This document shows, in pieces, positions 1,901 through 51,051 of a DNA stretch of 58,924 nt; positions within the stretch are counted from its first letter, which is position 1; the number at the start of each line of letters is the position of its first letter. Origin of the DNA: Nitrospiraceae bacterium (GTDB lineage Bacteria > Nitrospirota > Thermodesulfovibrionia > Thermodesulfovibrionales > Dissulfurispiraceae). The notes below the pieces were generated by a model. The model searched no databases. It worked only from the letters and a program-made list of their open reading frames with translations, and had not been told where the DNA came from. Both the position numbers and the translations under genes were made by a program. The stretch covers positions 1 through 58,924 of the forward strand of contig JAAYUK010000223.1 of NCBI GenBank assembly GCA_012517735.1. Direction: 5' to 3'.

Positions 1901-4900
1901 GAGCCTCCGCCGCACTCATCGACGGAACAATCAGCACGCTTCCGGCTGCATCCGTCGCAACCACATTCTTGAGCAGCACGGACTGTCCTTCCGGCAGCAT
2001 CACCCGCGTGTCGGCGCCTTCCTGCACAAACGAGGCGACGTTCGCCACAAGCGTCTCTGCACCGAATCCGGTCAGTTCAAGCGTGTCCACACCGACGACA
2101 AAATCCGTGATCGTATCGACCGCACCGCTTTCTTTCCGTACGGAGAATGTGTCGGCGCCCGCGCCGCCGGTCAGGGTGTCATTGCCCCTGCCGCCGGTCA
2201 GACGGTTGTTTGCTGCATTGCCGACCAGTGTATCGTTACCGTCGCCGGTGACAATGTTTTCAATGGATGAAGGATTGGTGATGCTCAGGGCCGTGCCGCC
2301 TATGCTGGCCACGCCGGTTGACAGATTGATGCTGCTGGCCGCCGTAACGGCAGCTGCGTTAACAGTGTCGATTCCGTTATCCGTATCGTTCAGCACATTG
2401 CGGCCGCCTGTCGCCGCAACCGAGGCAAACTCGTTCGTATACACATACGTATCGTCGCCGTTATCGGTCTTGCCGTACAGGTTCAGGCTCCAGCTCGTAA
2501 GGGTGCCGGTCTTGCCGGATGCTGCATCAATCACCTTCAGCGTCCAAGTGCCTGCTGCCGACTCTCCCCAGTCGTGCGTGGTGTCCAGGGTAAAGGCAAG
2601 CGTATCGGAACCGTTGAAATCCTTGTCTCCGGTCACCGAGGCGACACTGCCCGGCACCTTACCCGGACGATTGATCAGCACCGACTCGGTCCCCGACGGC
2701 GCAACGAGTTTCACAATCAGGTCGCCCGCGTTCTGGTGCGTCAGGGTGATCGTCACCTCGGCACGCTCCACCAGCATGGTATCGGTCACCGTAAGCGTAC
2801 TGCTGATGCCGGTTGCATTGTTATCGGGAATCGCAAGATTGACGGTGCCGCTCGACGGCGGCGCTGCAAGCGTTGCCCGATTGGCCGCAGTCCGCTGCGC
2901 AGTCCATGTTTCGGCAAGACGCACCGCGGCGAGCGCATCCACTTCGCCGAATCCATAGTCGTGCGACACATGCATGCCGCCGCCATTGCTGTTCTTTGCG
3001 CCGTTGTCCTTCCAGTCGGTCGAAGGGTCGTTCACCTTGCGGGCGGTCAGCGCAAGGATCTCCTGCACATCGCGGTATCCGAGGTTCGGGTTTGCCTCAA
3101 GCATAAGCGCAACGACACCCGACACGATCGCGGCGGAGAAGCTCGTGCCGCTGCCCTTGTCGTAATCAGTACCCATGACCGTGCCGTTTTCGTTCTCCAC
3201 CGACACCGACGTGCTGATGATATTGCTGCCCGGAGCCGAAACCAGCAGCGACGCGCCCGGCGTGCTCGACGAGATGCGCGACGACTCAAGACCGCCGAGA
3301 TCGGCAACCGTATTGATCTCGCCGACCACAATCACATCGCGGTTGTTTGTCATGACCGACTCGTTCGTGTTGCCGCCGATGTTGCGCACATTACCCGCAG
3401 CATCCACAATGACCGTGCCGAGATGATTGCGGCCGTTCGTCACAGCATCGGTCACCGCATCGGCAAAGGTGTTCAGGGGAGCAAACTGCCGCAGGACGCC
3501 CCAGCTGTTGTTCGCAATGTCGTAGTCCTTCATCTTCGCAAGGTTCTGCAGGTTGTTTGCATCCACGTTATAGCCGGCAAGCGTGGCATCGTAGGCAACA
3601 CCCACCGTACCCTCGCCGTTGTTGGCAGCAACCATAACCCCCGCGACCATGGTGGCATGATTCGAGGCAACGTCCTCGCTGCCCTCTCCTGCGCGCTCGC
3701 CCTCAGTCGCACGTGCCAGCCATGCAGCGTCAACATTCTGCTGCAGATCCTCGTGGCGGAAATCGAATATCTCTTTTGTCGTGCCGCCGACATCCGCCGG
3801 CTCGAACTGCGCAATCTTCACGCCTGCGCCGGTATAGTCCTTCCACACCGGCAATATCTTCGTGTCGGCAAGATACGTCTGCTCCACAAGCAGCTCATCC
3901 TTCGGCAGATCGGGTGTGCGGAGCGTAACCGTTGCGCGCATGACCGTATCCGTTTTGCCCGTCTCCTTCGCCGTTGCCGCTGCATGTCCGGCGCTGTCCT
4001 TTACCGTGTACTTGAAACTCATGAATCCGGTATAGTTGGCATCCGGCGTAAACAGCACATCTCCCGATGCCGTAATCTGCGCCGTGCCGCCGCGCACATC
4101 GTACAGCTTCAGAATCTGCAGACTGTCGCCCTGCAGGTCGAGGTCGTTCTTCAGCAGATGGTCTTTGGAGATCAGATGCGCCGAAGTGCGGTCAAATGCA
4201 TTGCCGTCGGCATCTTTCTCCAGCACATCGTCGGCAGGCAGCGGATTCGGCAGGTCCAGATCGATCACGCCGGTGTCCTTGAAGCTCAGTCGCTCGATGT
4301 TCTGCAGATAGTCAGCACCGTCCCTGCCGCTCACCGTATCGGAGACAAGCACCCCGTCCTTTGTCCGGGTAATCCGGTAGTCGGCAAAGTTGCCGCTGAA
4401 CTCGGCCGCATCGATACCGTCGCCGCCGTCAAGCACATCGTCGCCAGCGCCGCCCTTGAGCACGTCGTTCCCGCGGCCGCCCGAAAGCTCGTCATCGTCA
4501 AGCCCGCCGTCAAGCACATCGTCGCCCGCGCCGCCCATCAGCGTGTCGCGGCCCCTGCCGCCACGGAGGATGTCGTTGCCTGCGCCGCCGTCCACAAAAT
4601 CGTCGCCGTCGTCGCCGTTCAGCACATCGTTGGCGGCTCCGCCGATCATGATGTCGTCTCCCTCGCCGCCGCTCATCACTACGGTCTTCCTGCCGCCGCC
4701 GATCAGCACATCGTCGCCGCTGCCGCCCTCGACCATCTCGGCCTCGGCCTCGGCAAGATTCAGCACCACACCGCGCGTGTCCTTGACAATGATCCGGTCA
4801 AACCCCTCACCGGCATGCAGGTTTATCTGCTTGTCGTCTGCGTCGATTACCAGCACGTCATCTCCCGCGCCGGCCTCGAAAATGTCGGAGCCTGCGCCGC

Positions 4901-6557
4901 CTTCGAGCCAGTTGTTGCCGACCGTGCCGATCAGCGTATCGTTGCCCGCCCCGCCGATCGCGTTGAGCATGCCCTTGTCGCCAAGGTTGATATACTCGTC
5001 AAACGCCGTCATGGCAGTGTACGTCTTTGCCGGATCGGGAGCCTTTTCGATCTTGTCGGTATCAAGCGCCTTCCAGCTTTTTACGCTCGCATAGCCGCTG
5101 TCACTGTCGCCACCGCCGCCACCGTAGCTGCTTCCGCTGTCGCCGCCACCGTATGCGCCGCCGCCATAGGCACTGGTGCTTGTCGACATGGTCAGCTGGA
5201 AACTGTTGTTCGTGGCCGAGATGCTAATACCTCCGCCACCACCGCTTCCGCCGCCATAGTCTATATAGCCGCCTCCAGAACCGCCTCCCGAAGTACCGCC
5301 GGTGCTGCCGACACCTGACGAAAAATTCCACTGGGAAAACGCGATCTCGACATCGGCATCTGACTTCCCGACAAGCGGGGTGTAATCGACATTTTGCGAA
5401 GCGGCAGTTTGCGTAGTACTCTCTACGAATGTCTTGCCGTCTTCGCCGAGCACACAACTATTGCTTAACTCAATACCTCCACCGGCAGCACAATATGCCG
5501 CGGCTTCGGCATTACCGGTTTCAGAGCTGGGGGCTGTCTCGGCATTCCACGTTGCCCAATACGCAAGGCCGTTCAGCAGCGGGCTTTCACCTACCTGACA
5601 GACGTTGGGGTTCGTGGCAGGTGAGGTGGTGTAGGTGCAGACTTGAGCGGTGTTTTGGACGGGAAGTTCAAGTTCCTGCCCTTCGTAAATTTTTACATCC
5701 TTGATGCTTCCGTCTGCATATCTTGTGATTTTGCTTTCCGGTATGTTGTTGACACTTACAAGTTCAGCAAGCGTTGTATTGAATTTGTTTGCAATATCAC
5801 CTAACACATTATTTTTTTGAACCGTATAGACACCGGTAGATAAAGCTTCCTGGATGTCCTCCTCCTGCACAGGGATGAACTTCCTATTTCCACTAATTCC
5901 GCTCACATCATATACTTTTGTGACACTACCCTCACTAATTGAACAGACTCCCCCTGTTGTATTAAATCTTATATCTGGAATTTGATTTTCAATGACTTGA
6001 AAAGGCTTTATTGGACAATCAAGATTTATAGATGGAGAATATTTGATCTGCTCATAGCCAGTTCTTATGTTGATATCATTATTAGCGTTATTCCACCAAC
6101 TGCCGGACGTATCTAGATTAGGATTTGAAAAATACTTTGTCAGTGCATTATAAAGACCTCCACCCGCTAAGCATTCGCTCTCCGAAAGTCCCGCAGCACG
6201 ACATGCAACTCCAAGGACATAACTCGCTGCGGGAGTGAACGCAGACACAAATCCTGTCGAGTCTTGGGCCACATAGCCGTTGTAAGATCTTTGCAAGTCG
6301 TCATACCCCCCCCTCCTAAATGCATCTACAAAAATGCTATAAGTTACGGCACGTCCTACAGAAGTTGCATTGCTCGATGAAGACAATCCTGCATACCGAT
6401 CAATAAATTCAGCTAGATTAAAATCAGCAGGCACGACATACGGGGTACCGTCTTTTTTTAGAATATAATTCCCATCTTTGTCTCTAAGATATTTAGCTGA
6501 AACAGGGGAGCCCCCCCTTGAGTACACAGTAAATGACTCAGGATCAAATATTCCCAT
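1..6557 (-). CDS. Giant RTX repeat protein with subtilase (S8) and P-domain, 3' end beyond the window
   Basis: One reading frame stays open from an ATG at 6557 (GAGGG Shine-Dalgarno just upstream) to the window edge, at least 2,185 codons. There is no signal peptide, as expected for type I secretion. Order from the N-terminus: a unique AT-rich region; a LysM-like motif (about 5740-5835); a Gly/Ser/Tyr linker (5090-5310); RTX nonapeptides of GGxGxDxLx type (4400-4990); a cadherin-like segment (about 3960-4250); a subtilase domain (about 3110-3850); a P/Homo-B-like domain (2480-2850); then RTX units to the edge. In the subtilase, His967 (NHATMVAG), the NNSWG oxyanion region and Ser1139 (GTSFSA) are visible. 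The usual Asp position reads AQFEP, so Glu919 replaces Asp. The likely role is an extracellular calcium-dependent protease or adhesin. Activity is uncertain because of the Glu. Confidence 0.9.
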
Positions 6558-49267: not shown

Positions 49268-50011
49268 ATGCTGAACCTGATCCGTCTGTGTATGACTGTC
49301 GTCAGCCTGCTCACTGTCTGCTTTGTACAGAGTGAGGCAGCCTCGTTTCTGGAAAATCTTTTTGAAGACAAGCCAGCTGCAGTTGCACCTGCCCCCGCGC
49401 CTGCGCAGCAGAATACAGCCACGATAGCTTCCGGGCTCAGGGAGGCACTGGCGATCGGCACGCAGAACGCAATAAGAACCGTCGGAAAAACAGACGGCTA
49501 CTTCGGCAACAGCCTCATCAAAATTCTCCTGCCGGAAAAACTGCGCACCATTGCAGACACCCTGAGCGCTCTGGGCTTCAGAAAGGAAGTCGATGCACTC
49601 GTGCTGAGCATGAATCGAGCCGCTGAAAATGCCGCGCCCAAAGCGGAAACGATTTTCGGTGACGCGATCCGGCAGATGTCGATCGACGATGCGCGAAAGA
49701 TTCTGGCAGGAACCGATACCGCAGCGACAGATTATTTCAGGAGTAAAACGACTGCAAAACTGACGGAAGCGTTCAAGCCGGTCATTGCGAAAAGCCTTGA
49801 TGAGGCGGGAGGCATACGTGCCTACCGGAATTTTGTGAGCAAGGCTGAAGCTGTTCCGTTTCTGAACAAGGAATCGCTCGACATCGATGCCTATGTTACC
49901 AACAAGGCGCTTGAAGGACTCTTTACCATGGTGGCTCAGGAGGAGAAAAAAATCCGCACCAATCCAGCAGCCCGGACAACCGATCTGCTCAGGACCGTGT
50001 TCGGGAAATAA
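49268..50011 (+). CDS. DUF4197 protein
   Basis: The 247-residue protein has a signal peptide (LIRLCMTVVSLLTVCFVQSEAASF), then a Pro/Ala linker and helical DUF4197 (SGLREALAIGTQNAIRTVGKTDGYFGN, ILLPEKLRTIADTLSALGF, GDAIRQMSIDDARKILAGTDTAATDYFR). The domain is widespread in Gram-negative bacteria and of unknown function. It lies 10 nt after mscL and 26 nt before selD. Confidence 0.88.
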   Translation: MLNLIRLCMTVVSLLTVCFVQSEAASFLENLFEDKPAAVAPAPAPAQQNTATIASGLREALAIGTQNAIRTVGKTDGYFGNSLIKILLPEKLRTIADTLSALGFRKEVDALVLSMNRAAENAAPKAETIFGDAIRQMSIDDARKILAGTDTAATDYFRSKTTAKLTEAFKPVIAKSLDEAGGIRAYRNFVSKAEAVPFLNKESLDIDAYVTNKALEGLFTMVAQEEKKIRTNPAARTTDLLRTVFGK

Positions 50012-50037
50012 ACCGGAATCACTGCGCAAAGGAGTAT

Positions 50038-51051
50038 ATGGATTATCGCTTGACAGAACATGCCAAGGCTGCCGGCTGAGCGGCAAAGATCGGTCCGGCG
50101 GACCTTGAAGACATACTGAGCGGGCTGAGCCTGCCCGTCCATCCGAACCTGATCGTAGGCCCCGGCGACGATGCCGGGGTGTTTGTGCGGAATGGGATTG
50201 CCCTCATCGAGACCGTTGATGTCATTGCACCGGTCGTCGATGACCCCTATACGTTCGGCGCAATCAGTGCAACCAATGCAATAAGCGACGTGTTCGCAAT
50301 GGGAGGGTCTCCGATCACCGCCCTTGCGGTTGCAGGGTTTCCACTGTGCTCGTGCTCTCCCTCAATCCTCACGGACATTATCCGCGGAGCAGCGGACACC
50401 CTCCGGGAAGCGGGAGCCGTCCTCACCGGGGGACATAGCTTCGACAATGCCGAAATCAAATTCGGCCTTGCAGTCACCGGAATCGGGAACGCTGACCGTA
50501 TTCTGCAGGTCTCCGGAGCACAGCCAGGAAATCTGCTGGTGCTGACCAAACCGATCGGCATCGGCATGATTACGACTGCACTGAAAGGCGGCAAGGCCCG
50601 GCCGGAGGAAATAGACGAAGCTGTCCGCTGGATGCTTACGCTCAACAGGGAAGCTTCGGAGCAAGCGCTTGCCGTCAGGGCAACTGCTTGCACCGATGTC
50701 ACCGGTTTCGGGCTGCTCGGTCATGCGCATACGATGGCAAGAAGACAGCCGATCGACTTTGAGATACTCGCTGGAACGGTTCCGGTCCTTCCTGCTGCCT
50801 GGCGCTGCCTCGATGCGGGAATGTCTCCGGAAGGCGCCTATAAAAATCTCGAGTATCTGAAGAGCCGCGTCGATTTCGATGCAACCCTGTCTGACGAAAT
50901 GAAGCTCATGCTTGCTGATCCGCAGACATCGGGAGGGCTTTTGATCGCACTGCCGGAAGAAGGACTGCCTTCCCTTCAGCAATCAGGCATCTCTCATGCG
51001 GTTATCGGGAAGGTCGTGGCAGGAAGCGGACGCATTCGGGTCAAGGCGTAA
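50038..51051 (+). CDS. selD: Selenophosphate synthetase with in-frame Sec codon
   Basis: The true frame starts at ATG 50038 (AAAGGAG 5 nt upstream). It reads through TGA 50077-50079 as selenocysteine at residue 14 (AAG-Sec-AAKIGP), and ends at 51051, giving 337 residues. The Sec occupies the catalytic Cys position of the family, followed by the conserved Lys. Downstream are PGDDAGVF, TNAISDVFAMGGSPITAL, TGGHSFDN and TDVTGFGLLGHA. The enzyme makes selenophosphate from selenide and ATP. A standard caller would place the start near 50179 and lose the active site. Confidence 0.95.
50080..50104 (+). promoter_or_regulatory. Candidate bacterial SECIS hairpin
   Basis: GGTCC (50092-50096) and GGACC (50100-50104) pair across a GGC loop. 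The loop lies 18 nt beyond the UGA, within the usual 16-37 nt for bacterial SECIS elements. The 5-bp stem is short and the loop small, so SelB binding is plausible but unproved. Confidence 0.55.

Follow-up and report, generated by a model that had tools for sequence, protein, structure and literature searches.

A selD gene with an in-frame UGA at its catalytic codon and a SECIS-type hairpin downstream in a Nitrospirota draft genome

The window, the whole stretch of 58,924 nucleotides analysed here, contains a gene that almost certainly encodes a functional, selenocysteine-containing selenophosphate synthetase (SelD), in which an in-frame UGA near the amino-terminus would be read as selenocysteine by way of SelB and a hairpin located shortly downstream. 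The insertion itself, the binding of SelB and the presence of a selC gene are parts of this reading that we infer. The features concerned, all on the forward strand, are the following.

50028..50034, + strand: AAAGGAG, likely ribosome binding site for the ATG at 50038, read in the sequence.
50038..51051, + strand: selD, selenide water dikinase (selenophosphate synthetase), 337 amino acids with one selenocysteine (U14).
50077..50079, + strand: UGA, predicted selenocysteine codon at the catalytic position; TGA at this site in 48 of 48 resolved loci of the order.
50092..50104, + strand: putative bacterial SECIS-type hairpin with a five base-pair stem (GGUCC/GGACC) and loop GGC, based on synonymous-site conservation, pair counts and the consensus bSECIS rules (PMC13188914).

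The selD frame starts at the ATG at 50038 and ends at the TAA of 51049–51051. As the initial annotation had it, codon 14 is an in-frame UGA; this TGA (50077–50079) is the only in-frame stop, the frame being open before and after it. The read-through product begins MDYRLTEHAKAAG-U-AAKIGPADLEDILSGL, with a start, MDYRL or MNYRL, that is common to its relatives. It matches the selD family TIGR00476 with 337 bits (curated cut-off 125 bits) over residues 4–308, corresponding to profile positions 1–309 of 311, and is thus family-like on either side of the TGA, as had been claimed. The gene is present as a single copy in the genome, and its product is 70% identical to the SelD of a 'Nitrospirae bacterium' MAG contig. 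Upstream, selD is adjoined by a gene for a DUF4197 protein (258 bits, window 49268–50011), which ends 26 bases before the selD start. Elsewhere in the window, imperfect direct repeats are present at 1–1856 and 4423–4964, with spacings of 216–267 nt and a 27-nt register; these are probably coding repeats of large repetitive proteins.

The closest relative of known structure is SelD of Aquifex aeolicus (PDB entries 2yye and 2zod), which aligns with residues 7–327 with a score of 283 bits; the crystallised sequence has a cysteine in place of selenocysteine, and this cysteine is aligned with U14. E. coli SelD (PDB entry 3u0o) is the same enzyme, can be aligned over the whole length and contains the catalytic C-x-x-K motif. 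U14 falls on the active-site cysteine of both structures, in agreement with the earlier assignment of the selenocysteine to the catalytic position, and the conserved lysine follows at +3, with G-U14-A-A-K17 aligned to GCGCK in 3u0o and to GCAAK in 2yye. The E. coli enzyme therefore uses cysteine in its GCGCK motif, whereas the motif in the window's SelD is GUAAK. A mechanical open reading frame call begins at the GTG at 50179, dropping the first 47 residues of SelD and, as had been foreseen, the active site with them.

The TGA is conserved in relatives. Of 60 genomes belonging to the same order, 58 have a SelD match over the cut-off, and in each of these matches a single TGA is the only stop. 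At the catalytic position, TGA is present in all 48 loci of the order that could be resolved at the sequence level, the window and a genome of the same genus included. In 91 motif matches from mixed phyla and from relatives within the order, the site is TGA in 87, TGT in two and TGC in two; these matches were collected with peptide patterns, in which the motif permitted only a stop or cysteine at the site and other residues were uncounted. One might suppose that a cysteine codon, TGC or TGT, was turned into TGA by an error in sequencing or assembly, which would make the gene an ordinary cysteine-type SelD. The assembly is indeed a fragmented draft of 268 contigs, and TGC or TGT does occur at the site in four of the 91 homologues. 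However, an error is hardly conceivable when the 48 resolved loci, that of the same-genus genome among them, uniformly carry TGA and the downstream bases are kept at synonymous sites, as a SECIS element requires. Since all 58 selD-bearing relatives among the genomes of the order carry TGA, sequencing error is excluded for practical purposes.

The hairpin is formed by the arms GGTCC (50092–50096) and GGACC (50100–50104), with the three-nucleotide loop GGC between them. The initial annotation placed it 18 nt downstream of the UGA; the two arms are present and 18 nt is the right distance for the loop G, but the stem already begins after 12 nt and the loop after 17 nt. Published rules for bacterial SECIS elements ask for a loop of 3–9 nt with a G in the first two positions, a stem of 4–16 base pairs, a loop located 16–37 nt past the UGA and an energy of -7.5 kcal/mol or lower (PMC13188914). 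With its GGC loop, five base-pair stem and spacing of 17 nt, the selD hairpin agrees with the geometry, and its distance from the UGA is, as had been stated, usual for bacterial elements. Its energy of -7.2 kcal/mol (ensemble -7.3 to -7.8) is borderline with respect to the -7.5 threshold. In single-sequence folding, the prediction that had been proposed as a check, the energy is not better than that of shuffled sequences, and folding energy was therefore set aside as evidence for the hairpin. An Rfam scan of the SECIS region returned no relevant family.

The question of a chance origin is answered by conservation in relatives rather than by folding energy. Among 48 relatives, 31 of the 32 glycine codons found in the stem are GGT, against a share of 16% for GGT in the rest of these genes, and where the stem codon encodes serine, it is AGT in 15 of 16, against 33% of the AGY codons elsewhere. 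The aspartate codon of the opposite arm is GAC in 44 of 47 (43% elsewhere); the binomial values for these biases ignore shared ancestry, so that only their direction and size are usable. Stem cells are paired in 89% of cases in the hairpin register, compared to 12–60% when the register is slid, and two stem pairs show double changes, from GC to AU in three sequences and from CG to UA in one, although the sequences counted are related and the counts are small. This pattern, shown here from comparison of the genes, points to constraint on the hairpin at the RNA level.

A selenocysteine gene implies that the organism should encode SelA, SelB and a selenocysteine tRNA elsewhere, and genes for the two proteins are indeed present. 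No selC, whose absence had been named as grounds for refutation, was found in the draft, and this is the weak point of the reading. The selA gene is located on another contig (G000:C134, 602 bits); selB (G000:C214, 335 bits) is truncated after 583 residues, where its contig ends (at 9502). Furthermore, three genes of the formate dehydrogenase alpha type (FdhA-like) contain a TGA at the classic selenocysteine site, AR[LI]UH, with the motif ARLUHAPTVAGLA occurring once and ARIUHSATVPALA twice; as these genes carry TGA at this site, decoding of UGA as selenocysteine is supported beyond selD. These data also bear on the idea that the gene is a pseudogene, or a truncated SelD translated from the GTG at 50179, with the UGA a true stop and the selenium system lost together with selC. 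The mechanical reading frame start and the lack of a selC in the assembly would fit such a loss. We nevertheless judge it very improbable: selA, selB and the three formate dehydrogenase genes are still open save for their UGA, the stretch 50038–50178 is under visible selection at the level of both protein and RNA, and a missing tRNA gene means little in a draft that also misses tRNA-His and tRNA-Ile(GAU).

No selC gene was detected in the 268-contig draft with the Rfam tRNA-Sec model; the RF01852 matches in the genome were rejected, as they coincide with the genes for tRNA-Ser, Trp, Tyr, Gly, Leu, Arg and Met according to ARAGORN or to the position of RF00005 matches. A canonical tRNA-Sec(UCA) gene is present in the same-genus genome, as in most relatives, and no DNA stretch similar to the same-genus gene was found in the window's genome. 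The nearly invariant tRNA-Sec anticodon arm, CTGGTGTCCCNCNNGGACTTCAAATCC, is likewise absent from it, with up to three mismatches permitted. The draft contains 36 recognised tRNA genes, none of them for tRNA-His or tRNA-Ile(GAU), two tRNAs that the organism cannot do without. Because these two required tRNAs are absent as well, an assembly gap is the simplest explanation for the absence of selC, which would then lie in sequence that the assembly lacks. In the same-genus genome, selC sits between a GGDEF gene and cinA; here these flanks are on two contigs (C10 and C179), with no tRNA beside them on either. In one groundwater Nitrospirae lineage selC overlaps selB (PMC8124441), which is why the cut-off selB matters. 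Similar intergenic stretches, of the GAGCGGATTTATTCGGCGAAGCAGCACATACAGG type, occur on different contigs of the window's genome (L021, about 2524–2832 and 3265–3606; L183, about 3869–4060), and such dispersed copies may be one cause of the fragmentation into 268 contigs.

Eight more relatives with a UGA-containing selD (G004, G005, G009, G019, G025, G026, G029 and G030) have no clear canonical tRNA-Sec, either by model or by pattern. This is more than expected from missing DNA alone; G009, for example, is 100% complete in 50 contigs and has a complete selB with no tRNA-Sec nearby. It is conceivable, though unlikely, that this species and several members of its family really lack selC or carry a strongly altered one, and that the UGA is decoded by a tRNA which the standard models do not recognise, possibly one overlapping the 3' end of selB as in the groundwater Nitrospirae lineage.

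Several tRNA-Sec-like tRNAs with a GCA (cysteine) anticodon arm, CTGGTCTGCAAAACCAG, were observed in relatives, at L242:189–280 (- strand) and L240:239–366 (+ strand), and further ones at about 271–393 of L241 and about 195–317 of L244 (both + strand). Some have very long variable regions, with matches of 123–128 nt, and ARAGORN detects only one of them. They look like the selC* tRNA-Cys of Nitrospirae (PMC7609411). Decoding of the selD UGA as cysteine by a tRNA of this type, instead of as selenocysteine, might be considered: Nitrospirae are known to contain selC* tRNA-Cys, and a UCA anticodon occurs in some selC* tRNAs (PMC7609411). The tRNA-Sec-like tRNAs of the relatives carry GCA and not UCA, however, and searches of the window's genome revealed none of them. 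Together with the canonical tRNA-Sec(UCA) of the same-genus genome and the presence of SelA and SelB, this makes cysteine decoding highly implausible.

The preferred reading remains that of selenocysteine decoding. When the ribosome reaches the UGA at 50077, Sec-tRNA(Sec) would be delivered by a SelB molecule that is attached to the GGUCC-GGC-GGACC hairpin, and selenocysteine would be inserted at position 14, the catalytic position, to give G-Sec-A-A-K. The predicted activity of the enzyme is the synthesis of selenophosphate from selenide and ATP. SelA would use this selenophosphate to make more Sec-tRNA(Sec), and in this way SelD would feed its own synthesis.

Selenocysteine-containing SelD is a textbook selenoprotein, well known in many anaerobic bacteria. 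The SelD described here shows no substantive difference from the selenocysteine-containing SelD proteins (SPS2-Sec) recorded in Deltaproteobacteria and Clostridia, and it adds no new principle, because selenocysteine-type SelD genes followed by a hairpin have been known for a long time. The window's selD is a first-hand record of this type of enzyme in this Nitrospirota draft. For annotation, the gene is a case for rescue, given that both the start at 50038 and the catalytic residue are lost if the UGA is taken for a stop. For the biology of the organism, it indicates that this uncultured Nitrospirota lineage is a producer of selenoproteins.
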